In this document: positions 11,958 through 60,195 of the stretch, piece by piece
Layout of the letters: the number at the start of each line of letters is the position of its first letter
Numbering within the stretch: position 1 is the stretch's first letter
Translations under genes and position numbers: made by a program
From: Asparagopsis taxiformis
Lineage: Eukaryota; Rhodophyta; Florideophyceae; Bonnemaisoniales; Bonnemaisoniaceae
Reading direction: 5' to 3'
Assembly (NCBI GenBank): GCA_030407315.1
Contig: JALQPE010000069.1
Span: forward strand, 1-64,000
Length of the DNA: 64,000 nt
The notes under the pieces: model-generated
The model's input: only the letters and a program-made list of their open reading frames with translations
What the model was told of the DNA's origin: nothing
Database searches by the model: none

Positions 11958-13001
11958 ATGGGGTGCGCCCTATTGCAAGAACAGGAGGACAAACTGCTAC
12001 ACCCCGTGGGGTACTGGAGCAAAACGCTCACGGACACGCAACGCCGCTACACGACAACGGAGAAGGAATGCCTCTCGGTGTTCTGGGCTATCAGCCTCCT
12101 AAGGCCCTACTTAGAAGGGGCTCGCTTCACCGTCAGAACGGATCATAATTCGCTCACATGGATCCTGTCCATTACCCCTTCCGAGGGACGTCTAGCACGC
12201 TGGCGACTACGGTTGTCGGAGTTCGACTTCGATATTCAATACCGCCCAGGTATTAAAAACGTCGTTCCAGACGCGCTGTCGCGGATAGAGACCACCGGTG
12301 AAGACCGAACCCCCATCGACGAGGACATACCCACCTTCTCAATCCAAGAAGGGGAGAAAACCCACGGGACCTTTACGAAGGATGATGAGTACAGAGTGAC
12401 AGAGGATATGTATCCGTTGCCCTGGGCGATTGCCGTGCCATGTTTTGTCTCCACTCACGAGTTGGTACCCGAAGCCATCTCGAGGGATGAGTGGATCCAA
12501 GCGCAACTGGTTGATGAGTTTTGTCAGACTATGCGCAAACGTATGGATGACGGAGTGGACCAGCAAGTGGTTCTTACAGAAGACGGGATCCTCGCGAGGA
12601 AATTGCCAGCGCTCGCTCGCCCACAGGTCCTCGTGCCCGAATCGCTACGGCCTCGGCTGTTGCGTAACTATCACTACTCCGCCACCGCTGGACATCCAGG
12701 GGTGAGGCGGATGTACGATACTCTACGACAGGGACTTTATTGGCCGACCATGGTCGTCGATGTGCACGCCACCGTGCGCGGATGCGAAACATGCGCCAGG
12801 GATAGGATGCAGCTGTCCCGCCATACCAACCCCTTGAAGTTGTTCCCGGCCCTTAGGCCACTTGAGGACGTCGCCATAGACCTCATGGGTCCTCTACCGA
12901 AAACCTCCCGAGGAAAGTTACACGTTCTGGTCATCATGGACCGTTATTCTAAGCTGTGCAGGCTCGTGCCATGCGCTCGATACAAGCTAGCTTGGTTGTG
13001 A
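11958..13001 (+). pseudogene. Chromovirus RNase H and N-terminal integrase
   Basis: The 347-codon frame holds the RNase H region (YWSKTLTDTQRRYTTTEKEC, then FTVRTDHNSLTWI). Integrase follows with its HHCC zinc-binding region (GHPGVRRMYDTLRQGLYW, then CETCARD) and the start of the catalytic core (AIDLMGPLPKTSRGKLHVLV, MDRYSKLCRLV). It exits the frame near 12970, where one base is missing compared with the second element, so the core continues in the next frame. Confidence 0.85.
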
Positions 13002-14245
13002 AAGCCTTTGTGGAGGAATGGGTGTTTACTTATGGGGCACCTAAGACTATCCTGTCGGATAATGGACCCCAGTTTCGTTCTAAGACCTTCGTCGACGCCT
13101 GCGTCATTTTGGGTATTAAGCCGGTGACTACTACTACGTATCACCCGCAGACGAACGGTCAGGTCGAACGATTCAATAGGACGCTCGCGTCTATGCTGCG
13201 CCATTACGTGGCTGAGGATCATCGCAACTGGGACGAATACCTCCCCGTCCTTGCCTATGCGTACAATCGGTGCGTGCACCGCTCGACGAATACAATTCCC
13301 TTCGAATTGGTCTTGACGCGCGCGCCACCGCCGATAGGCTTGGAGGATGTTACACTCAAAGGCGATGAAGCCTGGACGCGTGCTTCCTGGCGCCGGCAGC
13401 TTCGTGGGTTGTATGCGCGCGCTAATTCCTCGCTCGCGAGAATGCAAGCCCGGTACAAGCGCGACTTCGATAAGGCGGTGCGAGCACCAAATCGCCGCAT
13501 CCGAGCCGGGGACGCAGTCTATATCGACTTGCGCAATACCTCCCAGGAGACGACTATACTCGGGCGAGCCCGGAACAAGTTGGATTTCCAATCGATGGGT
13601 CCGTATACGGTTATATCTAACCAAGGTCACACGTTTGACATACTTGTCGACGGAATTCCCGAGAGAATTAGTTCGGATCGCGTACGCCCAGCCCCGGGTC
13701 ATGGACCGGTGCAGCCGGGTAGCGACGGTGAGGAGGAAGGCCGCGAAACCGCTAATGCAAGAAGTCGATTGCCGCGTCGCCCCCGGGCGAACGAAGTACA
13801 GACGGAACCGGGTTCCGAAGCGCTTCTACCGGCAGATAGGGCGGTCCCGCCATCCGGGAATACGGTATCCGACCCGCGCAATCCCCAAGGAAGCACCCCC
13901 GCGCCAATCGTACGCGAAGATTACCCACGGGTAACGCAGGACGCAAGCGAACTGGTCAGTCCGACGCCGGTCGACGGTGACTCCGAGGAACACTCCAAGG
14001 AGTATACGATAGACGACCTTATCGAGGAATGGGTAGACGATGATGGCGTGTCCTACTTCCGTGTGCGCTGGTTGGGGTACGCCCCCGAGGAGGATACCTG
14101 GGAGCCGGAAGCGAACCTTCCCCCAGCCATAGTGGCTCGGCATCGGAAACGGACCGCACGTCAAAAAGAGCGCGCTCGTTTCAAACGGCCAAGTCACAGC
14201 CGGAAGGTAAGAATATCGTTGATCCACGGCGTCCGTTGGATCTAA
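12956..14245 (+). pseudogene. Chromovirus integrase core and chromodomain
   Basis: This frame continues the integrase after the one-base deletion. It holds the second catalytic Asp in ILSDNGPQF and the catalytic Glu in TNGQVERFNRTLASM, followed by the GPY/F-like region FQSMGPYTVI. The C-terminus (14000-14150) is a chromodomain: EYTIDDLIEEWVDD, FRVRWLGYAPEEDTWEPEAN. This domain defines chromoviruses and is known to target integration to modified histones. The segment is open from end to end, but it lacks the front of the core, so it cannot give a working enzyme alone. Confidence 0.85.
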
Positions 14246-23235: not shown

Positions 23236-26200
23236 ATGCCGTCTGACAATGCTTCCCGAAAGCCCGACTCGGAAGCTCCGTTCTCCCCCTCACGATCCTA
23301 TCCAACCTTTGCACATGCCGCAATTTCCTCCATGCTAACCTACTCTGCGCGCACCGGAACTCTTGGCTCCGGCCCGCCTGAGCCGCCACACACAACCAAT
23401 CCTATCCCGCTACTCATTCGTTCAATTCCAGTTCGCATGCTCATTTCTCAAACAATTTGGTCAATTGCAATAACTTTCGTCGCCTACTTCGTCGGTGACA
23501 AATCATACAGCACCCTCTCTGTCCCATATTGGACCTCTCACTTTCTCCTCCCTTCTACGGTGGTGTACGGCGTTGGTTGGGCTCTCTTCGTTCTGCTAGG
23601 CTTCTTCATTCGTGAAGCTTCCAGAAGACACAGAGAGGCGCTCGTCCACTGGTATGAACTTACATCACAAATTGAAACCCTCGTCCGACATTTAATCCAA
23701 CTCTACCCTGCAGGCACCTGGCATCCAGGCGACACAGACCGAATTGTCGCTCATCTAATGGCTTATCCTGTTGCCCTTAAAATGATGCTGCGCCGCGAGC
23801 GAGAATCCCTCCAGATTGACAGCTGGCTACACTCACATGATGCGCGCGATATTATCCAGTCTGATGATATGCACATTCATTGTATGCGCGTGGTCAGAGC
23901 CTACTTTACATGCTCAGAAACTGATGCACATGCTGGTTTTCAACCAGCCGCGCAGTCCAGTCCCTCTGGAAAAGCTGGCAGTTTTTTTGCTGTCCGCCTT
24001 ATCGATTCAATTGACTTGTCCGCCAATTGCATGATGCGCATTGCCGAGTTTCATCCTGCTGTTGGGTACGTCAATCACTTGCGAATATTCTTGTACATAT
24101 GGCTCTTCTTTCTGCCGCTTGCGTTGATTCAAACTAGCGGATGGTAAGTGATTCCCATTGTATCTTCGATGTCCCGTACATCACTCATCCGTACATCTGA
24201 CCGTGCATGTCTTGTACTTACATGCAGGTTTACTGCGTTGTGGGCGGTACTTATCACATATGGGGTCGGAATGCTTTTCATTGTTGCAATGGCACTCAAT
24301 GACCCCTTTGGGTACGATATTCAGGATATGAAATTGAACACATTGGCTAGCCAAGCCGCGTTGAATATTATGGACGCATATTGTCTTCATGAACGCAGAC
24401 TTTTCGACCTCATCAGAGCTGACCATAATACGCCCCAATGGTTGGAAACCGAACGTCAACCCAAAGAACTAAACACTACAAAGAAACCAAGTTTTGTACG
24501 TCGTCTCATACGTTTTATGTTGTCAGCCGTTTGTGACCGCCTGCAAAGGATATTGTTTATAGCCATGGGGATCTTTCTAGCATGGTTATCCACTGTCGTA
24601 TTCGTCACACGACACATCGCACAAAATCAATCTTCTCCACCGGACCGTGTTTGTCGATGGTGGTGCGTGTATATGCCTGCGAGCTCTTCAACTACGTCGT
24701 ATGTAGGTCTGGGTGTTTTCCTGCTTATGGGCTTCTGGATCAATGACGTATACGATCGATATTGGGCAGGCTTACAGCTCTGGCAGATATCGCTCAAATC
24801 ATGCCTGAATAGGCTGCTGTTTCAGACGGGCTTTTTGTGCAAAACGGGTACATGGCACGACAGAGATATAGAGCGTTTATTCTCTCACATTGCCGCCCTT
24901 CCGTACGCATGCAAGCAACATCTTCGTCACTGTCGAGATGTTATAGATTTCGAGGGTATTCTAGCTCCAGAGGACATTGATGCGCTCTCGGAAGATCCAA
25001 ATTATGTTGCATACTGTTTTCGCGTCATATATGCTTATATTAACAGTCTGGACAAACAGGATGAAGATACATTGCTCTCGAAGAAGCGTCCCGTCAATGT
25101 TTCAATCTTTTCAATGATAATGACCTGCTGGGAAACAGAGAAGATTCTCAATGAATGCCACGCACTTCGAAATATTCCGATATCCCCTTCATTCACGCTT
25201 CATTTGCACGTTTTCGCGGTCTTTTGGCTTGCGTTATTGCCATTAGTATTCGTACAACATGATGGCTTTCTCGCTTTCTTATTTTTGCCACCAGTTGCAT
25301 ACTCCATCATCAAACTTCTTATTATGGGGGACGAGCTTGCAGATCCATTTGGTTACGATGCCAATGACATCCCGCTGGATGATCTCTGTGCGGAATTGAG
25401 AGATTTGGTATATGACGTATACAATGAAACAAGATCTGGACCTGCAAGTATTGTGCATAAGTCAAGTTACAGTGACGAGTTCATCCACACCACCGCATCA
25501 ACGACGCCAAGAATAGCAATCTCTGAAGAATTTCGTCCAACGTTTGGTGGTCTCCTCGCAAATGCTATGAGATATTTTCCGTCTGTCTCATGGCTTGCTC
25601 AAATTTCCGTTACGTTATGGTCGGTTGCAACAGTTCTAATTTCTTATAGACTCTCTTTCGTTTGGGGGGAAGAACGCCGCACCTCGAGTTGCCAGGAGTG
25701 GTGCAGCCCTATCGATGTGGACAAAAACGTCTTGTTGGAGACTGGATTTGCTCTGTTTCTAATCCTTTCATTCAGAGCCTCAGATGCGATGACAAGGTAT
25801 CAAAACGGAGCGTCTCTCCTGCATGATTTGCGAATGGAATTGAGATCGCTGCTCATTGAGATGACACAGGCATATGATAGAGGCGTTTGGCACAAAAACG
25901 ATAAGGAGAGAATTGTCGCCCATTTAGTGCAGATCCCTTTGTTACTGAGGGACAAGCTGCTGGAGGTTGATCTGTCTCATCAAGAGGGCATCCTTTCAAT
26001 CGAGGATTATCTGGTTTGCCGAAGCAGCACAAATCCTTTGAGGTATTGTGTTCAGGTTGTTGAGGCATACATGTTGTCACTCGATACGCCGAGCGAAGAG
26101 TGGAGCTTTGTTCCAGCGCAAAAGAGGCAGAAACCAGCTGCAGCTTTACTGTTCTCTATGATGCGACGGATAAACAGAATCGGGGATCTTATCAGTACGA

Positions 26201-28922
26201 TGGAAGGAATCAAAAGGTTTCCTACTGTCAGCAGTTATACAAAGCATCAAAGGTTGTTTACGATACTCTGGTTACTTTTACTACCACTTGGGATGACACC
26301 GAGAACTGGATTCTATACCATCCTTTGGGCTCCGTTGATTTCATATGGCGTTCTCGCTTTGGAGGCCCTGGCAACAACTTTGGTCGATCCTTTTGGGCAT
26401 GACAGGCAGGACCTTCCTGTCAACAAAATTTGTAAAGAGATGGCCTCACATTTACTGGAGGCTGTTAGATCATCGGAATGGGACTGCACATATCATATCA
26501 TTCCATCTCCGGTTGACAATGCAGCGCGTTTGGGAACCTTCTTGGCTGGTAAGCAAATAAGAAACAATTACGACCTGCCTCGCTTAGCTAAGGAAGAGCA
26601 TGGTGATTTTGCAGACACGCCTTCATTGGTCTTTTCAGGTCCGCGAGAAACAGCAACGAAACCTACCCTTCTCAGCCACCTTATTCGGAGTGTCCCGTGG
26701 TGGGTCCTGATAAGTATAGCCGGCTGGACATCGTTGGTAGTGGTTCTTTCGCGAGTTACGAAAATTGTAGATGCTGATTCTCGGTTGTGGAGGTCTGCGG
26801 TTAGCATCGATGGTGTGGTTGCTACATATATTGGCTTTCCAGGTAAGGTAAACAACAATTCTCACGCTCAGCTCAATTCCAAGCAATCATCTGACCCCTT
26901 CTATTCCAATTGTTCTTGTAGCATTCATGCTATTAGGTTTCTATGTTCAAGCATCTTTTGCTCGATATATGGAAGCTGGGAATGTCTGGGGTGATGATTT
27001 GCGCGCTACATGTCATTCATTGGCAGCTCAATGGTATCTATTGGCGGCTCCTGGAACATGGCATAAGGGCGATCATGAAAGAGTTCTTTCACATCTCGCG
27101 GCAATCCCAATTGCTCTGAAAATGGAACTTCGTGACAAGCGCGATATAAGAGAATTGAAGGGATTACTTTCGCAGCAGGATTTGGGCCGGGTTCTCACAG
27201 CAGAGAGCATGAGTTCCCATTGCCTGGATGTCATTAAGGCATATTACATCGCAGCTCAATGCCGACCGGAGGCATTGTCAGACCCATCGGAACTGATCAC
27301 AGATTACCGAAAGTCAATCAAGTACGAGTTGCGCAATATTGAAATAGCTTTATGTCGGTGCAAGTTCCTGAAAGCGTATCCAATCGCACCTAGCTTCATG
27401 GTTCTTCTCAGAACTATTTTGGGTATTTGGTTCATTTGTCTACCATTTGTCCTCGCAGAAACTACCGGTATGTCGAGAACGATTAAGAGGAAAATAACGC
27501 GGGCGTCTTTCAGAGAGTTGAAACTAACGGTTAGTCTCGCTACATATATTTCGTTCTTTTGCAGGTTGGTTTTCTATCCTATGGGTACCAATCATTGCTT
27601 ACGGATTCATCGGGTAAGTTATCACAAGCTGTCTCGAGAGAAATTTTGCCATCACAGGCAGAGCAATAAGTCTGACACATCTTTCAATTGTGTCTTATAG
27701 AATGTACGCTATAGCGCACGAACTGCAACAGCCTTTTGGAAGTGATCTAAATGACTTTGACCTGGACAAGCTAGCACATACAATCGTTGAAGCTGTCCTT
27801 TTCGTTGAGCAGAACCTTCGGGGAGGACTTGATCGTTTGATTGTCAAGATTGAGCATTCTGGTGCAGCCTGGGAGCAGGAAGCAGCTGAGAAGTATGATC
27901 CTTCATGTCTTTCTGATACTGAGAGGTGTGACCCAAGTTCCTTGAAATGGAGGACGCTTCAAATGGCCTTACATGCCGTACCATTGTGGATGATTGTTGC
28001 GATTGGACTGTGGGCTGCAGGCTCTGTCACTTTAGCATGGTTGATTAATCGAAGATGGCCAGTGGAAAATTCTTGTGCACCGGCATTTTGCATCCCTTTG
28101 GCGATCGATTCTTTCGTGAAAGAATATGTTGGATTCGCTCTTTTTTTGCTGCTTGGTTTCCGACTATATGATAGTCACTGGCGATATGTGGTCGCATTAA
28201 CTGTGTGGAGAGATGGGATTCTAACTGTAACACGCTTATTTGCGAACAGAATGTTTGAGGCGTATCCGACGGGATCGTTCCATAAGGGTGATTCAGAGAG
28301 AATTGCTGCGCATCTTGCGGCATTTTCCATTGTCACTACTCTACAGTTACGACGTGAAGGCTCCTGTTCAGCAATGTTGCAGGGCATAATGAACGAGGCG
28401 GACATAGCACGTCTGGAGAAAGTGGAGCAAAAGGGTGATTATTGCATAGATGTTGTACGGGCGTATCTAAAAGCAGATGAAAAGAAGATGGAATGGAATG
28501 GTCCGAGTCCTTCCGGCGCGTTTGTACACTGGTTGTTGCTGTGCTATCTGGGACTCATGAAGGGTTATGCAGCAACGTGTGAAAGAATGTTGAGCGTACC
28601 AATGCCGTTTGGCTACGTGCAACACATTCGAATTTTTCTGGTGATATATATGGTGACTCTACCACTAGGTCTCGTGGAGACTTCTGGCTGGTGGACTATT
28701 GCGTGGGTTGTGATTATAGCGTACGGTGTGATTGGTGTTGAGAGATGGGCTGCGGAATTGACGGATCCGTTTGGAACAGATCTGTCTGATTTGCCGCTTG
28801 GAAAGTTTCGAATTGATGTGGTGAAGGCCATACAGACTAATCTGCATTGGTTCCGACATGGGAATGAATCTGTGATTCATCCAGAGCGAAAGGCGTTTGT
28901 GGTGGAGTCTGGTGTTCATTAA
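23236..28922 (+). CDS. Five-repeat bestrophin-family (UPF0187) anion channel protein
   Basis: Exons 23236-24143, 24228-26842, 26922-27467, 27565-27613 and 27701-28922 join in frame (about 1,779 residues). All four introns are GT-AG, 79-97 nt, with CTGAC or CTAAC 24-27 nt before the acceptor. The product holds five consecutive bestrophin-like units, at roughly residues 58-365, 391-700, 740-1050, 1112-1410 and 1450-1765. Each unit has hydrophobic helices, the LLGF/LMGF-type second helix, the cytosolic motif GTWHxxDxERxxxHL (GTWH, GTWH, GVWH, GTWH, GSFH), a hydrophobic hairpin near TSGW, and the family signature DPFGxDxxD (QPFG in unit 4). Bestrophins and plant/bacterial UPF0187 proteins are anion channels built from five single-unit subunits, so this chain could form a ring alone; that is inference. 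No targeting peptide is obvious. AATAAA follows at 28928-28933. Confidence 0.85.
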
Positions 28923-30691: not shown

Positions 30692-33600
30692 TCAGAGCAT
30701 CACAAGTATCAATGAAAATTCTCCACCGCGCAGAGCAACTCCAACAACTCTCGACTTGAACGACTTGCACAAAACCTCCTCAACGTCCTCAAAAGTCGCC
30801 AGCTTGACATCTTCCTGACCCTTCAGATGCTTATATCCGGAGCCATCGATACAGATCCCGCTCTGCGTACATCGAAGCAGCGCCATTTTCATGTCTTCTG
30901 CGCTCATCGACTGGCGTTCAATATCCACAATCTCTTCCGTAGCGAAACCTGAAAGCTGAATGCCACGTTTTTCAGCTTCCAGCGCCTTTGTTGTAAGGTC
31001 CCAACGGTATTCTCTACTGGCTAGTATCTTCCCGTCTTCACTTATTGCGACTGGCAACAATGATTGCACCTGATGTTGTACCTTGCACTTGCGTACGTCC
31101 CATACACGAACGTTTCCGCCGTCGTTCTGCAAATGCTCTTCTCTGCATAGCGTTACAAGCCGGTCTGCACGAGGCGTTATCGACATGGATGTTATGGATG
31201 ATCCATGTTTAAATACTTCACTGCTTGGCTTACCGTTGTAATAATTCCATATTTGCGCAGTACCAATTCTAGTTCCGATGGCGACCTGTCCCTGGATCGA
31301 TGGAATTGTTACACACGTCACGTGCTTGTGAGAGATAGAAGAGATAAGTTCGCCAGTATTACCGTCCCAAATCTGGACATCCTCTCCGGATGAGGTTGCA
31401 ATTCGACTTCCATCAGGCGCTGCTTCGACGATCTTTGGCATTATCGCGTTGTCAATTTGGCAGATACGCGACCCGTCAGAAGTATCCCACGCGTGTAACA
31501 ATCCGTTTTCCGAAACCGAGATAATTCTATTGCCGTCGCAACAAACGACGCATTTAGACACTTGATTTATCCAACGCTGCGACGTATCAAGAGACGACGC
31601 ATCATAATCAACACTCCATACTTGAACAGGGCCTGGCGCAGTTCCTGTCAGAACCTGGCTTCCGTCATCTGTGATTCCAACAAACGTCTTCCAGAATGTA
31701 TCGCCTTCAAAGAAAATAGGGTCGCAAACAAGTTCTCCAAACGCATTCCAAACTCTTGCTGTACCGTCATCGGAAATTGTCGCGAGGCGACTCGAATTAG
31801 TTGTCATAGCTATATCTCGCACGGTGTAGTTGTGGCCTCTCAGCACAGTAGCCATCGATGAATCCTGCGAGATGTCGAAAAGCCGGGCAGTACTATCACT
31901 AGATCCAGTTGCGACGAGACTTCCATCACTTGAGATAGCCACGCATGTGACCGTTCCGGAATGCCCATGCGATATACTCTTGTGTTGTTTTCCAGTTATT
32001 GCATTCCACAAAAGGACGCCCCCATCATTGCATCTAGTAACAACATGTTCTCCATCGCCCGACATGGCCAACCCTTCTACACGAATGTCATGTCCGTGAC
32101 GCAGAGTACAAATAAGCCGCTGTTTTTCGACATTCCAAACGTTAACCAAGCTGTCCGAAAAGTTGATAGCAGCCACATCGCCTTCTGCCGAAATTGCACA
32201 ACATGACCACCAATCATCGAATTTCTCCGGTACTTCATCTTGGAGCTTGCTCGTTAACAGCTCTCCCGTTTGCAAATCCATTACCCGCGCATCTCCAAAC
32301 CCGAGGTCTACAACAGCTCGTCTGCCATTTGCTGATAATGTAATCCTGTTAGCATTAATCATTCCGGACACGCTTTTCTGTTCTTGCCATGCAGCCCTCT
32401 GCATTTGCGTGATCTGACGAACGGCATCAGTCATAAACACATCATTTTGGAAATCTTTGCGTTGCTTTCCGTACGCCAAGGACCCGACGATCCCATTCAA
32501 AATGCCATGAGGCCCATTTTCTGTCTGTCTGAACATATCGATTGTAGATCTCAAGCGCCCTCCGGGTGGGTGTAAAGATCCAAGAATTGGCTTTGCCCAC
32601 GGTGCCCGAGCAAGTTGTTCAATGTTCGAAAGATATATGCGAATGACAGGGTACTTGTCCATCATATTTGTCAATCTTCCCGTCAGCTGGAACCAAAGCT
32701 CTTCAGGATTCTGAGAATAGTATCCCCAGGAAAGATGGATCGCTTTGATGATCAAGTCCATTCCCTTGATCAATTTTTTGTGTTCTGATGTCAATTGCTC
32801 TTCAGCTCTTCGGATAGAATCAACTAGTATTGTGACATCCTTCTGTAACTGAAATGTTCTGTGGTCTTGCAACAAACGACGTGTCCACAATGGGTTCAAT
32901 ACAAGGTTTTCGAGCTCCTTCCGCAACCCGGCTCCTACAAGGTGACGACTGAGTTCACCAAGAATGTATAGATCATCTTCTATCACCCACCATTCTCGTA
33001 TGCTTTGCTGACCACCCCAGCTGTTTTCGAGTGGTTCGATGTAAGTATTTAAAAGTTGCTTATGCCAGAATTGTACCCCTCCTTCACATTGCGATGCCTT
33101 TGTGGAACAATAAATATGCATCCAGTCATGTAAACGAATACCAGAAACAATCATGCCGCCTGCTTCGCGTTCCTCAACTTCAGCCAGACTGGCATCCGCA
33201 AAGAGTTCGGCAATTTTGAGCGCGCGATTCGCTTTTCCTACACCCCAGAGGCGAGCTAGAATATAATCTGGTAACCAGCCTTGCCGTTGAACTATACACA
33301 ACGCTCTGTACATGCGATGAAGCGGCATAGGCAATGGGAAGCCGAGAATATTTGCTGTCACTTCATCGGAAAGAACCTGCAGTGAGGCAGAAAATGCAGC
33401 ATACAATCCCGGATGATTATCGAACCCTTCTTGAATTGCCCCTTGGGCAAAGTCTTCGAGGGTAGCAACAAAAGATTTCAAAACACTAGACTCTCCTTTC
33501 TTGCTCCGTTTTCTGCGCTTGAAGACTGCATTACCAACTACAGCCAGTGCCAAAGGTAGGCCTGCGCAGAACCGTAACAACTCATCCACACATGCTTTGA

Positions 33601-34810
33601 ACTCTTCATCACCATCTAAAATAACATCTTTTTCAACTCGGGCAGATCGCAGTAAAATACCACGTGACTCGTCTCCGAGAGGATCGCGGGGTGAAAAGTC
33701 TAAAATTTCTGTAGCAAGCGAGCCGACGTCAGTGTCTCGAGTTGAGAACACTAAAGCACTTTGCTCACTGCATCGCAATAGTCCAGCTAAAACAGAGATG
33801 AAATCCGCTCCAATATCATTCACAACCGCGACATCATCCACTATAAACAGACATGCTCTTTCTTGAAACCAATCTGCTGTTCGCGCGACAGCTACATCGA
33901 GATTCATCTCAAGACGTACATCCCTCGCCCTGAGTCTACCACCAGAGTATTCCACCATATCACCCAGTTTCTCAATTGCCCGTCTTCGTTTGGCCTCAGC
34001 ACCAAGCGACATGAAGTACACACCACCCGGAAAGCGCGAGATTACATCTTTCTGTTCTGCGAGTCCTCGCAGCGCGCAAGATTTTCCGGCACCACTCATG
34101 CCGACGACAGCAGTCACGGGACGGCCATTGGGATGATTTTCACGCAGAACAATGCGTTTCAGCTTTGCTTCGTGTGTTTCAGGCCCAGGGGTATCAGCGG
34201 CTGTTTCGAAATGGTGTCTCACGAAATGCGGAGGTGTCTCCTTGAAGAATGAGGGTTTGAAGGTGACTGGGTTTTCAAGCGGACTAACGGCGCGATTTAT
34301 GTCGTGCAGGACGGTCTCAATGGGCTGTAATCGTTGCGAAATGTCAGTTCCAACGGCGGATACAGTTGAGAGAAATGCGTGCCAGCTGTCAATTCGTTGA
34401 TGAGCAAGATAGGCAGTTTGTTCCAGCTGCTGCCATTTGCTTTTGATAGAGTGCGCTTGTAGGAATTGGACGAACCAGCCGTCCTGGATCTGCGATTTTC
34501 GGATGTCACTGAGGACTTGGTTGGCAGAGAGGAAGGATTCTCTCATGTTGTTCATGTAGGAATAGTACTCGGAAAGATCGGAGGATTGCAGCAATTGTGG
34601 TTTGGAAACCACAGTTTGGAACTGAGAACTGATAGCATGGAGGCGTTTTTGCAAGTCCGCGTACAACGAACTGATGCGGTCGATGTGTTCTGCATTTGTG
34701 CCATAGATTCGTTTCTGCTGCTTGAAGTACAAGACAAGGGATATCGCCTGTTCGAGTGGAGTCAATACGCTGATAGTGAGAGTCAACACATCAAACGCCA
34801 TGTGCGGCAC
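30692..34810 (-). CDS. NLR-like STAND NTPase: N-terminal helical bundle, NB-ARC, WD40 repeats
   Basis: A single exon of 1,372 residues. Residues 1-200 are predicted helical with a hydrophobic start (LTLTISVLTPLEQAISLVLY) and look like a four-helix-bundle signalling domain; that is inference. The NB-ARC follows: P-loop GMSGAGKS at about 236-243, Walker B CLFIVDDV at about 318-325, STRD sensor-like motif, GLPLAL at about 415, and LHDWMHIYC in the place of the MHD motif near 590. A helical spacer leads to WD40-type repeats from about 820 to 1330, with units such as GHSGTVTCVAISSDGSLVAT followed by GSSDSTARLFDI. NB-ARC/WD40 proteins are signal-gated switches (for example Apaf-1 and fungal NWD proteins), so an immune or cell-death role is plausible but untested. 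It lies 223 bp downstream of the Sec14-like gene in the same orientation. Confidence 0.85.
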   Translation of the reverse strand: MPHMAFDVLTLTISVLTPLEQAISLVLYFKQQKRIYGTNAEHIDRISSLYADLQKRLHAISSQFQTVVSKPQLLQSSDLSEYYSYMNNMRESFLSANQVLSDIRKSQIQDGWFVQFLQAHSIKSKWQQLEQTAYLAHQRIDSWHAFLSTVSAVGTDISQRLQPIETVLHDINRAVSPLENPVTFKPSFFKETPPHFVRHHFETAADTPGPETHEAKLKRIVLRENHPNGRPVTAVVGMSGAGKSCALRGLAEQKDVISRFPGGVYFMSLGAEAKRRRAIEKLGDMVEYSGGRLRARDVRLEMNLDVAVARTADWFQERACLFIVDDVAVVNDIGADFISVLAGLLRCSEQSALVFSTRDTDVGSLATEILDFSPRDPLGDESRGILLRSARVEKDVILDGDEEFKACVDELLRFCAGLPLALAVVGNAVFKRRKRSKKGESSVLKSFVATLEDFAQGAIQEGFDNHPGLYAAFSASLQVLSDEVTANILGFPLPMPLHRMYRALCIVQRQGWLPDYILARLWGVGKANRALKIAELFADASLAEVEEREAGGMIVSGIRLHDWMHIYCSTKASQCEGGVQFWHKQLLNTYIEPLENSWGGQQSIREWWVIEDDLYILGELSRHLVGAGLRKELENLVLNPLWTRRLLQDHRTFQLQKDVTILVDSIRRAEEQLTSEHKKLIKGMDLIIKAIHLSWGYYSQNPEELWFQLTGRLTNMMDKYPVIRIYLSNIEQLARAPWAKPILGSLHPPGGRLRSTIDMFRQTENGPHGILNGIVGSLAYGKQRKDFQNDVFMTDAVRQITQMQRAAWQEQKSVSGMINANRITLSANGRRAVVDLGFGDARVMDLQTGELLTSKLQDEVPEKFDDWWSCCAISAEGDVAAINFSDSLVNVWNVEKQRLICTLRHGHDIRVEGLAMSGDGEHVVTRCNDGGVLLWNAITGKQHKSISHGHSGTVTCVAISSDGSLVATGSSDSTARLFDISQDSSMATVLRGHNYTVRDIAMTTNSSRLATISDDGTARVWNAFGELVCDPIFFEGDTFWKTFVGITDDGSQVLTGTAPGPVQVWSVDYDASSLDTSQRWINQVSKCVVCCDGNRIISVSENGLLHAWDTSDGSRICQIDNAIMPKIVEAAPDGSRIATSSGEDVQIWDGNTGELISSISHKHVTCVTIPSIQGQVAIGTRIGTAQIWNYYNGKPSSEVFKHGSSITSMSITPRADRLVTLCREEHLQNDGGNVRVWDVRKCKVQHQVQSLLPVAISEDGKILASREYRWDLTTKALEAEKRGIQLSGFATEEIVDIERQSMSAEDMKMALLRCTQSGICIDGSGYKHLKGQEDVKLATFEDVEEVLCKSFKSRVVGVALRGGEFSLILVML

Positions 34811-42764: not shown

Positions 42765-45700
42765 CTACTTTCTATCGACCCATTGCTCGATTGGATGATC
42801 AAGTTTCGCCTCGGTCAGAATAGATTCCAAGATAGCTTTCCGAGAAACTTTAGTGAGCGCGTCGGCGGGATTATGTTTACTTCGTATGAAGCAAATTTTC
42901 TCCATCTCTCGAGATGAATAGGCACTTTTGACGACCTGTAAGTCAATCATGAGCCGTTTCTCAGCAGTATTAGTTGCTTTCGATATAACGTCGAAAAGAG
43001 AAAGGCTATCTGTAAGCATGACAATTGGAATATCAATTTGGAGAATTGATTGCAAGTCAGCTTGGAGGATATATGCCATATCAAAGCCATCAGCAAAAGC
43101 CATAGCTTCGCTTCCGAGCACAGATCTGCATACTCGTTTGGACTTCCGAGAAGACCAATAAAGTGGTTGACAACGGTTTATGCCATCAGCTAAAAAGATG
43201 ATGTATCCGATCTGAGAAGATCCATCATAGTTGTTTCCATAGGATGCGTCGGAGTAAACCTGAAGTCTAAGGGATTTAACGTCCAGTTTTGGATATCGCA
43301 ACGGGAGATATTCCATTTTGGACAAGTGAGTGATAACGGAATTGAGAGCTTTGATATGTTCTAGCGTACTGTTCTCAAATCTTTCATTTGTCACCTGGGT
43401 GGATTGAGCGACGGAGCAGGCTATGTCCGGTCGAGTTTGACATACCCACGCGAGTTGTGCTCGTAGAGAGCGGTAGTCACTGAAAGAAGAAGTCTTTTCA
43501 AGCATTTTAAGCTTGTTGATATACTTCCTTTGATGGATTAGTTTCTCGCCGTTTCCTGACTCAATCTCAACGCCGGCGAATTGGGTGTTGTCCCATTCGC
43601 GTTTTCGACACTGGAAACGCTTTTCAGTCGCTTTGGAAGTAGAAGAGAATTCTTCGTTTCCTGCGTGGAGAATGTCATCCACGTAAGTGACGCACAGTCC
43701 AACCAGCTTATTTTGTACTGACTTGTACAATAAGGCCTCATCGCCGATCGTTTTTGTCATGCCCAAGTTGTTGACAAGGTGATCGGAGATTGTTTTTCCC
43801 CAATAGTCTCCACTATCGGGAAGTCCGTATAAGGGTTTTTCCAATTTTAGTACAATATCATCTGGTAGGCCAAAGTCTTTGGATGGTTTGACAAAGACAT
43901 CTCGATTCAGTTTCTCTGCGCTTTGTAGGTAAGCTTGAGTGACGTCTGTCGAAAATATTCGAAAACCAAAAGTAGCCGAAATAGCAACGAGGATTTTGGT
44001 CGAATGCTGTTTCGCAGTCGCCGTGTCGTGAACTAGTGAGAGCTTCATTTTGTCACGGTGACCTTGGACTACGTATCGGGCTTTCAGTTTTTCTTTGTCA
44101 GTCCCGGGATCCTTGATGGCAAGTACAAATCTACCTCCAAGGATATTTGCACCTTTCGGTACAAGGGATTTGGGAATTTCCCTCCACGTTTTTCGATCAA
44201 TTAATCCCTGGATTTCTTTCCTTTTAGCCTCATTGAAGTGGGCTTCTCTAGGATCTCCGGGGTGAATGACTTCAGTGATCATTGTAGAGAACTCCGGGGG
44301 AGGTGAATTCTGTTTGGAACGGAAGGGTTGCAACATCTGGTAAAGAACACTTGGTGACTGAGCGTGAGGGCCATTTTCTTCACCGTCTTTTTGGTAGCGT
44401 TTTACCTGTTGCGAGTTGAAAACTCCTTCATAAGTCCTTTCAGAATTTTGTACGGTAATCATTTTTCCGTCAACGAAAACAACTTTGTACGGCCCAATCC
44501 ATTCCTTCTCTTTTTCTCGATAGACCAGAACTTCGTCATCGATAGAGTACGTTTCATCGGTTGCAGAAGGTACATTCTTAGTGAGTGCAGTGAGAATCCT
44601 TCTCTGGGCGATTATAGTGTTCATCTCACGCTGAGCTAGCGACAGCGCTTCCATACGTTCAGCTTGAACCGGAAGATTGCTGTTGATGATTGGGAATCTG
44701 GGGATGATCCCGAACACTAGTAGGGAGGGAACCAGTCCATTTTCTCCCATAGTATCGTTCATTGCCTTCAACGCGAGTCGAAGTGTAATGTGTTCACTAA
44801 GGTTGCTGACTTCTTTCCGAACTTTACGGTAAATTCTACGGAGAGGGTCGTGAAGTCGTTCACAAATCCCAAGGGAGTTATGAGCTTCGATCCCGGAAAT
44901 TCTGAGTTGAATTCCGTTCTCGGTAGTAAGCTCTTTCCATTTCGGGGACGTAAAAATAGAACCGTAGTCGGTCCTCAGACGGTTGGGGTAACCAGAGTAC
45001 AGAGTACACCAGCATTCTAGGAATGCCAACCAGACACCATAGGCAGTCTGTCCGTATGTGGATACGTTAGAGTCCAAGAACGTAGCCGAAGAAAAACGGG
45101 TAGCTGTGTCAACGACATGAAGTATGGCGTTGGAGTCGATGAACATTAAGTCCATGGAAAGTTCTTCTCCAAAAACGAGGTCTTTTTCAGGGGGCATTGA
45201 AGTTTTGAACCTAATCGGGGGGTGTGCAGTTTTCTGACAAACTTCGCATTTGTCAGAGATTTCGCGAAGTAGTTTGGTAGTTTCTTCGTTGTATTCATTT
45301 GGACGAGCGCGTTTGATAAGTTTTAAGAGTCTTTCGTCCGCTGGATGTTGAAATCCTCTATGCAGCTTTAGCAGCTCGTTTTTGGTGAATAGGATGCGAT
45401 GGGAGTGCTCCCATTCGAGGTAAACATGTCCAAACTTTCGACACAAAGGTATTTTCCATTTTAAGGATGGACACTTTAAAGCATTTTCTACCGTGTCTAC
45501 AGTCATCTCAAGTTGGTCTAGTACGTCTAGTCCAATGAGGAAAGGCACGTCGACGTTTACTACGTCGACATTGAGAGAGACGAAGCTATCTCGGGGGGAG
45601 GCGATCCTAATCTCTATGTAGCCGAGAGATCGTTGGAGGTCTTCTCCAAAGCGGTAGGAGTTTCGGTTTTTTCGGGGCTTGAATTTAACGCCCATAAATC

Positions 45701-45959
45701 GGCAATACGCAAGTGCTTGCGGTTTGCCTATGACGGTTTTCTGGGCTCCAGTGTCCAAGCATGCTCCGTGCCATAGATCCTTGCGGATTCGACGGGATGA
45801 CTTTGAGTCAAGGGCACTGGTTTTGCGTTCCCCTTTTATGACGAAGATCTCCTGGCTTCTTCTCTTAGTGGAGGAACACCGGGATTGATGGAGGACAGAT
45901 TCGGACGTGTTGATGGGGGATTCAGAGCACGAACGACGGTGGGTACTGCCTCCAGCTAA
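42765..45959 (-). CDS. Copia Pol: protease, integrase, reverse transcriptase, RNase H
   Basis: The frame is open from the gag stop to TAG at 42765 (about 1,064 codons) and has no good ATG before the protease, so it is probably made as a Gag-Pol fusion. Protease has LDTGAQK with LIGLDVLD as the second half. Integrase has the HHCC pair (HRGFQHP; CEVCQKT), catalytic Asp in SMDLMFID and RTDYGSIF, and Glu in ICERLHDPLR. RT has TDVTQAYLQ, KPLYGLPDSG and the YVDDILHAG catalytic box. RNase H has YSDASYGN, GSEAMAFADG, LTDSLS and HNPADALTK. Length and order are normal for copia Pol, and no internal stop or frameshift is seen. Confidence 0.93.
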   Translation of the reverse strand, partial: LAGGSTHRRSCSESPINTSESVLHQSRCSSTKRRSQEIFVIKGERKTSALDSKSSRRIRKDLWHGACLDTGAQKTVIGKPQALAYCRFMGVKFKPRKNRNSYRFGEDLQRSLGYIEIRIASPRDSFVSLNVDVVNVDVPFLIGLDVLDQLEMTVDTVENALKCPSLKWKIPLCRKFGHVYLEWEHSHRILFTKNELLKLHRGFQHPADERLLKLIKRARPNEYNEETTKLLREISDKCEVCQKTAHPPIRFKTSMPPEKDLVFGEELSMDLMFIDSNAILHVVDTATRFSSATFLDSNVSTYGQTAYGVWLAFLECWCTLYSGYPNRLRTDYGSIFTSPKWKELTTENGIQLRISGIEAHNSLGICERLHDPLRRIYRKVRKEVSNLSEHITLRLALKAMNDTMGENGLVPSLLVFGIIPRFPIINSNLPVQAERMEALSLAQREMNTIIAQRRILTALTKNVPSATDETYSIDDEVLVYREKEKEWIGPYKVVFVDGKMITVQNSERTYEGVFNSQQVKRYQKDGEENGPHAQSPSVLYQMLQPFRSKQNSPPPEFSTMITEVIHPGDPREAHFNEAKRKEIQGLIDRKTWREIPKSLVPKGANILGGRFVLAIKDPGTDKEKLKARYVVQGHRDKMKLSLVHDTATAKQHSTKILVAISATFGFRIFSTDVTQAYLQSAEKLNRDVFVKPSKDFGLPDDIVLKLEKPLYGLPDSGDYWGKTISDHLVNNLGMTKTIGDEALLYKSVQNKLVGLCVTYVDDILHAGNEEFSSTSKATEKRFQCRKREWDNTQFAGVEIESGNGEKLIHQRKYINKLKMLEKTSSFSDYRSLRAQLAWVCQTRPDIACSVAQSTQVTNERFENSTLEHIKALNSVITHLSKMEYLPLRYPKLDVKSLRLQVYSDASYGNNYDGSSQIGYIIFLADGINRCQPLYWSSRKSKRVCRSVLGSEAMAFADGFDMAYILQADLQSILQIDIPIVMLTDSLSLFDVISKATNTAEKRLMIDLQVVKSAYSSREMEKICFIRSKHNPADALTKVSRKAILESILTEAKLDHPIEQWVDRK

Positions 45960-56055: not shown

Positions 56056-59000
56056 TTAATATAGATGCACGCTGGCCACAAGCGCCACTCGCGCATGGCG
56101 GCGGTTATTAGGCCGATTTTGGCGCGCTCGCTGCCGCTCGATCCGCCTCCGAAAGCGCGCAACCATGGCTGGCGGTAGATTGGTCTCTGGCTCCCAGGTG
56201 TCGGCCTGGGGTGTATAGCCGAGCCATCGCACGCGAAAACGCGAATTTCCAGCGTCATCAACTCGCTCCTCTTGGAGGTCATCAATGGTGTACTCGCGCG
56301 TCGAGCACCCACCGTCCTCGTTTTCATTCAGCTCTTTAGCTGGTATGGCTGTCGCCCTAGCCTGTCGGCGTTTCCATCTTGAGAAGCGGCGAGGCTCCCG
56401 CGAGTCCCGCGTAGGGGACTTGCGGGGGCCGGCATCCTGTGGGTTCTCACCCGGTACAGGATGACTTAAGCTGCTGCTCGTGCCCTCTGGCGTATCTTTT
56501 GCACCATCCTTGAAGAACTGATTATCGTCCGGATTAGCGTCCTCGTGGGGACCGCTGGAGGCGTCACCCTCCTCGTTACGCAGGGTGGCTGCCTCGACAC
56601 CTCGCCGGTCGTTTGTAGGCCCTAGCGGGCGTGAATTCTCGCTCAGCTTAGCAGCTGTGGGCGCGGTTTGGACCTCTTGGTCGGGCAAACCATCACGGTG
56701 GCTAGTGGCCTCGTCGCTCTCCACCCTCACTGGCGAGTGGGGGAGGGGAGTTTCGCCCTGGCTCTCCGGCTCCACGCAGGGGACGCCGTCCCTTTCCTCA
56801 ACCCTAGCGGGTGTGTCACCGCCAACATCCAGGTTGTCTTTCTCCTCCAGGGGAGTGTTGGCCGCTGGTCGTACGCGGTCCGAACTTACCCGTTCGGGTA
56901 TCCCATCTATCATCACATCCAGTGTGTGGCCGTGGTTAGAAATGACGGTATACGGACCCATGGACTGGAAGTCTAACTTATTCCTCGTTCGACCGAGTAT
57001 CGTTGTCTCCTGCGGCGTGTTGCGGAGGTCTAAGTAAACTTGATCTCCCGCGCGTAGGCGTATGTTCGGTGACCGGACCGCCTTGTCAAAATCCCTCTTG
57101 TAGCGGGCTTGCATCTTCGCAAGAGACCTATTCGCCTTAGCATATTGGTGGCGTAGGCGGTCCTTCCACGTCGCCCGTGTCCAGGTAACGGAGTCAGCTT
57201 CCAGCTGTAGTTCTGCCAAGCCGAGTTTTGGCGGCGGGCGTGTCAGTACCAACTCGAATGGTGTAGTATTCGTCGAACGATGTATACAGCGATTGTACGC
57301 GTATGCAAGGACAGGCAAATATTCGTCCCAATTACGATGGTCATCGGATACGCAGTGTCTCAGCATGGATGCGAGCGTCCGATTAAATCGTTCCACCTGC
57401 CCGTTTGTCTGCGGGTGATAAGTGGTGGTGGTCATCGGTTTGACGCCAAGTATGACGCATGCATCGACAAACGCCTTCGAGCGGAATTGTGGACCATTAT
57501 CCGAAAGGATGGTACGTGGTGCCCCGTACGTGAATACCCATTCTTCAACGAATGCCTTCACGACTAAGTGCGCTTGTATCGAGCGCATGGCCACCAGTCG
57601 GCACAACTTGGAGTACCTGTCCATTATGACAAGAACGTACACGCGACCGCGTGAAGTCCTCGGCAGTGGCCCCATGAGGTCGATTGCCACATCCTCTAGC
57701 GGCTTCACAGCCGGAAATAGCTTGAGCGGGTTAGTGTGCTTGGACAGTTGAATACGGTCCTTCGCGCACGTCTCGCATCCCCGCACGGTGGCGTATACAT
57801 CCACGATCATCGTTGGCCAGTACAGACCCTGTTTAAGGGTCTCGTACATCCTTCTTATGCCTGGATGACCTGCCACCGCAGAGTAATAGTAGCTATGCAG
57901 TAGCCTTGGCCGAAGAGATTCGGGGACAACGACCTGACGCTCCCCCGTAGAGGGGGACTGGCGTACGAGTATCCCTTGCTCTGTTAAAGAGTATGGAGAG
58001 TCCGCGTCGGAGCCACTCTTGTAAAGGAGTGTTTGGCAAAGAGAGTCGTGAGACTGTGCCATGATCCACTCGTTCTCCGAGATATTCTCAGGGACGATAT
58101 CCTGTACCGCTATTAAGCAGGGAACAGCATGGTCCAACGGTTCTGGATACATGTCCATGAGGGAATGCCAACCCTCTTCCTCGGTCGCGGGCGGGTTCTG
58201 TCTCTCCCCTTCTTGGAGTAAGAACGTCGGTATGTCTTCCTCCAATGGGGTACGGTCCTCGCCGGTAGTCTCGATCCGAGACAATGCGTCCGGTACGACA
58301 TTCTTGATCCCAGGTCGATACTGGATGTCGAAGTCAAACTCAGAGAGTCTCAGCCGCCAACGGGCGAGTCTTCCCTCCGATGGAGTAATGGACAAGATCC
58401 ACGTGAGTGAATTATGGTCCGTTCTCACGGTAAACCGTGTTCCCTCGAGATAGGGGCGTAGTAAGCTAATTGCCCAGAACACGGAGAGGCATTCCTTCTC
58501 CGTCGTGGAGTACCGGCGTTGGGTATCAGACAAAGACTTGCTCCAATATCCTACCGGGTGTAGTATGCCGTCGTCCTGCTGTTGCAGCAGGGCGCAACCC
58601 ATCTGTCCATCCGAAGCATCCACGTCCAACGTGTAGGGCCGTCCAGCGTGCGGGAGGCAGAGGACTGGTGGCGACACCAATGCCGTCTTCAATGCCTCGA
58701 AGGCGCTAAACTGCTCCTGGGTCGGCGGGCCCAACTCCACAGGCATGCCCTTCTTAAGAAGTTCGTTTAACGGAGACGCTAATTTGGCGTAGGATTGCAC
58801 AAATCTCCGATAGACATTGCAAGAACCCAGAAAGCTACGCAATTGCGTCTGCGTCTTCGGGTATGCCGATTCTTGAATCGCCTGTAGGCCGGTAGACAAG
58901 ACTTCCAGCTTACCCGGCCGTATTCTGTGGCCGAGGTAGTCGACGCTCTTCCGGAAGAACTCGCTCTCCTTGAATTTGAGCGTGACTCCTGCTTGCCGCA

Positions 59001-60195
59001 GAATTGCCAGTATGGTGTCCACGTGATGGACGTGTTCCTTCTCGTTGCGAGAGAAGATGATGACATCGTCAAGGTACACAAGGCAGAATTGCCACTTGAC
59101 TCCTGACAGGAGGATATCGAGCGCCCTCTGGAACGTCGCGGGGGCGTTCGTCAAACCGAATGGCATTCGAATGAACTGGTAGGAGCCAACGTGCGCCGTG
59201 AAGGCCGTCTTCTCCTTGTCTTCCTCGGCAATGGGAATTTGCCAGTACCCACTATTGCAGTCGAGCGTTGTGAATATCGCTGCCTCCCCCAAGGAGTCTA
59301 TGCAGTCATCCATACGCGGTATTGGATATGCGTCCTTGACGGTGACTGCGTTCAGCCGGCGATAATCCACGCAGAAACGTGACGAGCCGTCCTTCTTCGG
59401 AACAACAACCACGGGGCTTGCCCATTCCGTCTGGGCGGGTTCGATAACCCCAGCCTTCAACATCTCCTGCACTTGTGCAGTGATAATCTCGCGGTTCTTA
59501 TGTCCCGCTCGGTATGGGGCTTGGCGAACTGGCTTCGTATCCGGCTTGAGCTCGATACGGTGCTCTGTCGCAGAGATCTCCCCCAGGTGCCCACTCCACA
59601 TGGAGGCGTGCTTTTCCAGCATCTTGACTATCTCCTTCTGCAAAGAAGTGTCGGATAACTCCATGGTTTTGCAGACAATTTCCTTCCAATCGGGAGTCCG
59701 TTCGACCTCACGGTTGCTTTCTTCTCGGGCATGAGTGGGGATTAGTGTGACGCTGGTGGGCCGTGCGTCATTGGGGCTATGGTCCCCTTCCTCTCCGACG
59801 AGGAGTAATGCAGTTGGGGGACCGTCTGTGGTACCCAATACCATACCCTTTGGTAGACGGATTTCCTTCTTCCCGAAGTTTGCAACTTCGACATCGAACG
59901 GCAGGAGCGGCCTTACCGTGGCGATACCATTCGCCATTTGCACTCCCTTCCAGTTGAGAAGCTGTTTCTTGGGTATCAGAACCCTCGTGCCCGAGTCGTT
60001 GGCTACGGCAGCCACTTTAGTCACCTTCCCGGATGGAAGTATGACCGGTCTAGCGACTCGAATGGAGAATTGCTTCGGCTTGGCCGAGGCTTTTTCTCCG
60101 TTCGGGGTCTTCGGGGGCGGAGCCTTACTCCACCCTATCGGTATACGTTCTTGGTTGTGTTGCAGCACAAATACTCGCTTCCGAGGGTATATCGC
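56056..60195 (-). CDS. Chromovirus RT, RNase H, integrase and chromodomain
   Basis: The frame is open for about 1,379 codons after the TAG that ends the protease segment; the first ATG is at 60168. RT has SRFCVDYRRLNAV, TLDCNSGYWQIPI, MPFGLTNAPATFQ and FCLVYLDDVIIFS. RNase H has TLDVDASDGQMGCALLQ, TTEKECLSVFWAI and FTVRTDHNSLTWI. Integrase has GHPGIRRMYETLKQG...CETCAKD, AIDLMGPLP, ILSDNGPQFRS and TNGQVERFNRTLASM, so Asp, Asp and Glu of the catalytic triad are present. A GPY/F-like motif (FQSMGPYTV) and a long acidic linker lead to a chromodomain (EYTIDDLQEERVDD, FRVRWLGYTPQADTWEPETN). No frameshift is seen, so enzymes from this segment could be active if it is translated past the TAG. Confidence 0.92.
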   Translation of the reverse strand, partial: AIYPRKRVFVLQHNQERIPIGWSKAPPPKTPNGEKASAKPKQFSIRVARPVILPSGKVTKVAAVANDSGTRVLIPKKQLLNWKGVQMANGIATVRPLLPFDVEVANFGKKEIRLPKGMVLGTTDGPPTALLLVGEEGDHSPNDARPTSVTLIPTHAREESNREVERTPDWKEIVCKTMELSDTSLQKEIVKMLEKHASMWSGHLGEISATEHRIELKPDTKPVRQAPYRAGHKNREIITAQVQEMLKAGVIEPAQTEWASPVVVVPKKDGSSRFCVDYRRLNAVTVKDAYPIPRMDDCIDSLGEAAIFTTLDCNSGYWQIPIAEEDKEKTAFTAHVGSYQFIRMPFGLTNAPATFQRALDILLSGVKWQFCLVYLDDVIIFSRNEKEHVHHVDTILAILRQAGVTLKFKESEFFRKSVDYLGHRIRPGKLEVLSTGLQAIQESAYPKTQTQLRSFLGSCNVYRRFVQSYAKLASPLNELLKKGMPVELGPPTQEQFSAFEALKTALVSPPVLCLPHAGRPYTLDVDASDGQMGCALLQQQDDGILHPVGYWSKSLSDTQRRYSTTEKECLSVFWAISLLRPYLEGTRFTVRTDHNSLTWILSITPSEGRLARWRLRLSEFDFDIQYRPGIKNVVPDALSRIETTGEDRTPLEEDIPTFLLQEGERQNPPATEEEGWHSLMDMYPEPLDHAVPCLIAVQDIVPENISENEWIMAQSHDSLCQTLLYKSGSDADSPYSLTEQGILVRQSPSTGERQVVVPESLRPRLLHSYYYSAVAGHPGIRRMYETLKQGLYWPTMIVDVYATVRGCETCAKDRIQLSKHTNPLKLFPAVKPLEDVAIDLMGPLPRTSRGRVYVLVIMDRYSKLCRLVAMRSIQAHLVVKAFVEEWVFTYGAPRTILSDNGPQFRSKAFVDACVILGVKPMTTTTYHPQTNGQVERFNRTLASMLRHCVSDDHRNWDEYLPVLAYAYNRCIHRSTNTTPFELVLTRPPPKLGLAELQLEADSVTWTRATWKDRLRHQYAKANRSLAKMQARYKRDFDKAVRSPNIRLRAGDQVYLDLRNTPQETTILGRTRNKLDFQSMGPYTVISNHGHTLDVMIDGIPERVSSDRVRPAANTPLEEKDNLDVGGDTPARVEERDGVPCVEPESQGETPLPHSPVRVESDEATSHRDGLPDQEVQTAPTAAKLSENSRPLGPTNDRRGVEAATLRNEEGDASSGPHEDANPDDNQFFKDGAKDTPEGTSSSLSHPVPGENPQDAGPRKSPTRDSREPRRFSRWKRRQARATAIPAKELNENEDGGCSTREYTIDDLQEERVDDAGNSRFRVRWLGYTPQADTWEPETNLPPAMVARFRRRIERQRARQNRPNNRRHARVALVASVHLY

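Follow-up and report, generated by a model that had tools for sequence, protein, structure and literature searches.

A red algal gene encoding five bestrophin units in fixed order, a probable natural single-chain pentameric pore

A five-unit bestrophin gene in Asparagopsis taxiformis

A 64,000-nucleotide stretch of the genome of the red alga Asparagopsis taxiformis (contig JALQPE010000069.1, positions 1 to 64,000; here, the window) contains a single gene that encodes five consecutive bestrophin units. The gene model, rebuilt from the genomic sequence, spans 23236-28922 on the forward strand and comprises five exons and four GT-AG introns in an open frame of 1779 amino acids (aa). It starts at the first in-frame ATG (23236) and ends with a TAA stop codon, the last base of which is 28922. 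One intron lies within unit 1, three lie within unit 4, and none lies between units (Table 1). All four linkers are located inside exons 2 and 5, so the joining of the units requires no splice choice.

Five PF25539 (Bestrophin_2) stretches were detected by Pfam in the whole protein (570 bits, E = 1.4e-171). When the units were cut out and searched alone, every one scored above the curated Pfam cutoff of 27 bits, far beyond chance. The classic bestrophin family, PF01062, stayed under its cutoff of 24.2 bits, with 9 bits for the whole chain and 13.6 bits for unit 4 alone. Two motifs alternate five times along the chain, at aa 160/328 (GTWH/DPFG), 510/675 (GTWH/DPFG), 855/1023 (GVWH/DPFG), 1219/1383 (GTWH/QPFG), and 1564/1728 (GSFH/DPFG). 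An earlier reading of this DNA, made from the letters alone (the sequence-only reading), had described five consecutive units bearing two motifs in the same order and joined in frame across four well-formed introns, and the rebuilt model agrees on both counts. Its expectation of five hits in a domain search held for the number and not for the family, which is PF25539 (KpBest type) rather than PF01062. The five-unit chain likewise stands, with units that are diverged and position-specific rather than like copies. The window also holds a sensor-like frame, a cytochrome P450, and retroelement pieces (Table 1).

Table 1. Coordinates of the five-unit gene, its parts, and neighboring features in the window (HMM, hidden Markov model)
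Feature	Position	Strand	Description
Exon 1	23236..24143	+	Start ATG, N-terminal extension, and the larger part of unit 1; followed by the GT donor at 24144
Intron 1	24144..24227	+	Within unit 1; GTAAGT...GCAG
Exon 2	24228..26842	+	End of unit 1, units 2 and 3 whole, start of unit 4; one open frame over three unit junctions
Intron 2	26843..26921	+	Within unit 4; GTAAGG...GTAG
Exon 3 (unit 4)	26922..27467	+	
Intron 3	27468..27564	+	Within unit 4; GTATGT...GCAG
Exon 4 (unit 4)	27565..27613	+	49 bases
Intron 4	27614..27700	+	Within unit 4; GTAAGT...ATAG
Exon 5	27701..28922	+	End of unit 4, unit 5, stop TAA
Unit 1	23407..24393	+	aa 58-358; own unit HMM 329.6 bits; PF25539 96.4 bits as cut-out
Linker 1-2	24394..24522	+	∼43 aa, no intron
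Unit 2	24523..25440	+	aa 402-707; PF25539 127.9 bits as cut-out
Linker 2-3	25441..25563	+	∼41 aa, no intron
Unit 3	25564..26490	+	aa 749-1057; own unit HMM 355.8 bits; PF25539 114.5 bits as cut-out
Linker 3-4	26491..26658	+	∼56 aa, no intron
Unit 4	26659..27830	+	aa 1114-1416; split by introns 2-4; QPFG for DPFG; own unit HMM 350.8 bits; PF25539 137.7 bits
Linker 4-5	27831..27947	+	∼39 aa, no intron
Unit 5	27948..28862	+	aa 1456-1760; GSFH for GTWH; own unit HMM 331.9 bits; PF25539 134.9 bits
Retroelement piece	12956..14245	+	Integrase with chromodomain
Sensor-like frame	30692..34810	-	Uninterrupted, ∼1370 aa, adjoining the five-unit gene; NB-ARC and WD40 domains, like an NLR/APAF-1-type sensor
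Cytochrome P450	35473..37149	-	PF00067, 218.7 bits
Retroelement piece	42765..45758	-	RVT_2 with integrase
Retroelement piece	56056..60168	-	RVT_1 with RNase H, integrase, chromodomain

Conserved unit order and a position-specific pore neck

Other red algae, to which the sequence-only reading had pointed, carry the same kind of gene. The named relatives come from Gracilariopsis chorda, Gracilaria domingensis, and Agarophyton chilense (all Florideophyceae, Gracilariales), and five-unit forms are present in all three species and in additional assemblies. Protein searches with a full-length query (18 relatives) and a two-unit query (59 relatives) returned 68 different proteins in all; these searches rest on shared words and length limits, and distant forms may escape them. 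Five whole units are present in P0001 (G. chorda), P0002, and P0006. The protein P0003 has five units, with part of unit 5 absent from the gene model, and in P0004 and P0005 one of the five units is partial. Five PF25539 stretches were counted by Pfam in all of the relatives checked (five of the 68; P0001, P0002, P0003, P0005, and P0006), and NCBIfam gave no match for P0001. Most other relatives are pieces that start late in unit 1 or end in unit 4, and their ends recur at the same profile positions (∼258-272 in unit 1; 69 or 256 in unit 4). These appear to be exon ends, because introns of the window gene fall at some of the same positions. Two relatives, P0067 and P0068, are limited to pieces of units 2 and 3. 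Among the 68 relatives recovered by the word- and length-limited searches, no complete protein had a unit number other than five.

The PF25539 profile produced at least 87 matches in the A. taxiformis genome (141,494,207 bases in 3156 contigs). Among PDB chains, the rbcL product of this genome is closest to 8bdb (1048.7 bits), a red algal Rubisco (Griffithsia). In total, 21 stretches were compared, 20 from the genome and the window itself (contigs and loci carry our labels, C and L). Positions 1 to 5 occur in order within one stretch in 11/21 cases (the window, C1678, C1652 twice, C1915, C2212, C649, C1040, C1866, C2664, and C2169), some with frame breaks. The stretches on C193 and C2452 reach the contig end, C1188 holds one small piece, and C2147 and C2259 hold what look like one-unit genes of two kinds. 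On C2798, positions 1 to 5 are found only across three fetched stretches (L042-L044, ∼40-62 kb), with long interruptions; this is a five-unit gene with long insertions within units 2 and 3 that is ∼85-96% like the C1652 copies where aligned. At a DNA identity of at least 80%, the five-unit genes fall into ∼7 groups. The C2169 stretch, a 99.8% copy of the window locus with frame breaks, is probably the other allele. Two five-unit genes on C1652 (L033 and L034; 33-39 kb and 46-52 kb) form a tail-to-tail inverted pair and are 96% alike. In the 890-aa open reading frame (ORF) of this pair, which covers mostly units 2-3, the nonsynonymous (dN) and synonymous (dS) divergences are 0.018 and 0.086, respectively; in three wider paralogue pairs, silent sites are saturated. 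Degenerate pieces of a five-unit gene are present at L048 (C2727) and L049 (C967), both 91-93% like C1678, and on five other contigs (C1718, C1719, C1727, C1728, and C2296). The PF25539 scores of C967 and these five contigs are identical, and the piece is therefore probably borne by a repeat.

The units fall into classes that follow their position in the chain. A quick tree built from 70 units grouped each position of five reference proteins into one clade (Shimodaira-Hasegawa-like approximate likelihood ratio test, 96-100). A more careful tree with 45 rows and KpBest as the root recovered the five position clades with support of at least 100/99 and placed the one-unit bestrophin gene of C2147 (L045, 3465-5010, ∼5 exons) outside all of them (91/84); KpBest is a long branch, and the root is less sure than the position clades. 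Five positional models were trained on P0001, P0002, P0003, and P0006 and then applied to 86 further sequences, made up of 21 stretches of the genome and 65 proteins, one of them the window protein. The unit order never decreased in 86/86 sequences, of which 83 show at least two positions; L047, L049, and L050 show one position only, making their order trivial, the window is counted twice (as protein and as DNA), and several loci are near-copies. For the 199 whole units (at least 270 aa) in the proteins, the best positional model led the next best by 74-373 bits (median, 212), and for the C2147 one-unit gene the lead shrank to 2-3 bits, in line with a gene that has no position. At the level of sequence, the repeats are position-specific and their order is conserved, as in single-chain pseudo-symmetric channels.

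To examine the pore neck, units were aligned to KpBest and labeled by chain order, leaving out P0067 and P0068 and keeping near-identical rows. We take the conserved KpBest neck residues, which lie on TM2, to be I62, I66, and F70, an offset that fits the chain numbering and the PDB titles naming I180 variants. The window protein has, from unit 1 to unit 5, W-L-F-F-F at the I62 level, V-L-L-M-L at the I66 level, and F throughout at the F70 level. Among the aligned units, the F70 equivalent is F in 18/19, 61/66, 63/66, 39/41, and 32/35 at positions 1 to 5, respectively. The I62 level differs by position, with W in 13/18 first units, L in 59/66 second units, and F in 63/67, 51/64, and 26/35 of units 3 to 5. 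Judged from these alignments, pore-type residues are kept at all positions and the neck is position-specific.

A single-chain ring and its alternatives

AlphaFold models of three consecutive units of a relative and of window units 2-3 reached predicted template modeling (pTM) scores of 0.83 and 0.81, respectively, a confident prediction that consecutive units pack in a fixed arrangement. The bestrophin subunit fold was predicted for units 1 and 3 of a relative and for unit 2 of the window protein, with matches to KpBest or VCCN1. Foldseek matches to KpBest chains had a best E value of ∼2e-06 and target-normalized template modeling scores of ∼0.83-0.88. The linkers were predicted at lower confidence (∼50-67 in 10-residue blocks).

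The repeat number equals the pore symmetry of the family, with five units here and five chains in the PDB entries of related bestrophins. We consider it likely that this gene, read from genomic DNA, encodes a natural five-part bestrophin pore in a single chain of fixed order. We infer that the five units of one chain would close into one pseudo-fivefold ring around one pore. The chain order of the units would set the ring neighbors, and the neck ring would consequently be fixed and asymmetric. By analogy with the family, the pore would carry anions, chloride or bicarbonate. A built-in pentamer had been proposed in the sequence-only reading, and this proposal gains support from the five units, the order kept in relatives, the neck F at all positions, and the confident predicted packing of two and three consecutive units. 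The retention of all five units, every one of them diverged and bearing a pore neck, matches the expectation from a closed five-part ring.

The predicted packing and the conserved order also bear on other ways in which five-unit chains could be used. The chains could be real and share pores, either by domain swapping or as a cluster of five pores built from five chains (compare the arrangement of bestrhodopsin domains around one pentamer). Known bestrophins oligomerize, and linkers of ∼39-56 aa could in principle reach an adjoining ring, but consecutive units of one chain are predicted to pack confidently with each other, and the order of units is unbroken in the examined sequences, which a shared lattice would not need; we regard such sharing as unlikely. 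The conservation of order similarly argues against a polyprotein, in which cleavage of one translated chain would release five subunits for assembly into a heteropentamer, because a cleaved mixture would not need an order. Although the low-confidence linkers could hold cleavage sites, we regard this processing as quite improbable. Contigs can hold errors, as illustrated by the frame breaks of the otherwise nearly identical C2169 copy, and neighboring one-unit genes or an assembly artifact might have been read as one gene. However, every unit junction lies in an open exon, and separate genes are unlikely because each linker is coded within one exon. Five-unit genes also recur, in ∼7 groups within this genome and in further species, and the ORF of P0007 is transcript derived (its name is that of a GenBank GEZJ record, GEZJ being presumably a transcriptome prefix) and contains most of four units. 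Separate genes and a chimeric assembly were rejected on these grounds, leaving a misreading of this kind extremely improbable.

Several observations weigh against the single-chain ring. The P0007 ORF (1439 aa) comprises units 1-3 and most of unit 4, after which the frame is changed, so it accounts for less than the full set of five units on one RNA. Skipping of the 49-base exon was considered as the cause of the broken tail and rejected because the P0007 letters do not fit. Hydrophobicity of the neck is not uniform among the relatives, in that the I66 level of unit 4 is often T (17/42). The near-identical C1866/C2664 pair gives no sign of constraint (dN, 0.0039; dS, 0.0035), a comparison in which sequencing errors may weigh. 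Finally, the constant number of five reflects retention from one founder, not repeated invention, and the many genes do not count as separate, independent instances of that number.

Origin of the array and significance

A single origin of the array is most likely, in which a one-unit gene was repeatedly duplicated in frame before the split of the red algal proteins sampled here. Divergence of the units would have followed, as in four-domain sodium and calcium channels. The C2147 one-unit gene is a likely stand-in for the founder. A more distant one-unit bestrophin-like gene is located on C2259 (L047, ∼33329-34463); it scores 96.8 bits with PF25539, and its match to the five-unit family profile is partial (61 bits). 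A search for one-unit relatives with ten aligned units returned 12 short pieces only, and its word filter probably dropped bacterial kin, because that profile gives KpBest 112 bits. No relative was found in a scan of prokaryote genomes with the one-unit protein.

To our knowledge, other known bestrophins are assembled from five separate copies. VCCN1 and the animal proteins BEST1 and BEST2 have one unit per chain and in this differ from the window protein, in which their family model, PF01062, is below its cutoff. Bestrhodopsin (PDB 7PL9; Rozenberg et al. 2022, cited in PMC11453091) is likewise a eukaryotic algal fusion with a bestrophin domain and was found by the profile of ten aligned units (E = 8.7e-29), but it couples rhodopsins to a single bestrophin unit and has five chains in the entry, whereas here bestrophin is fused to bestrophin, without rhodopsin. 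KpBest and bacterial bestrophins (PF25539; PDB 4WD7, 5X87, and 6IVx) have one unit per chain and five chains per crystal entry, in contrast to the five different units in one chain encoded here. Four-domain voltage-gated sodium and calcium channels (PMC5824947) are also fused subunits of a symmetric channel with diverged, position-fixed repeats; they have four repeats of a cation channel fold, whereas the window protein has five of the bestrophin fold. Engineered ion channel concatemers similarly link subunits in a fixed order but are laboratory-made, whereas the window gene is natural and old.

The sequence-only reading knew of no described natural five-unit bestrophin. Consistent with this, no natural five-unit single-chain bestrophin or pentameric channel is named among the open-licence PubMed Central matches listed, a scope outside which most subscription papers and bioRxiv fall, and the same open-licence literature contained no papers on bestrophin and Gracilaria. 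The bestrophin family and fused channel repeats are both known; the five-unit single-chain combination is new among the literature matches listed. This is probably the first natural single-chain pentameric ion channel to be described, a pentameric analogue of four-domain sodium and calcium channels. Fusion would have let the five subunits of one ring diverge into an obligately ordered, asymmetric neck, and the arrangement would have been kept across florideophyte red algae and expanded to a multigene family.

Pentameric channels usually achieve asymmetry by mixing separate subunits, the order of which is hard to control. In a natural chain with one order, each of the five pore positions could be mutated alone. 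The evolution of an asymmetric ring from a symmetric one also becomes testable, since a one-unit relative that falls outside the five position classes persists in this genome. The five-unit genes also define a channel family that has so far gone unstudied in red seaweeds, which include cultivated species, and that is a candidate for chloride or bicarbonate transport.

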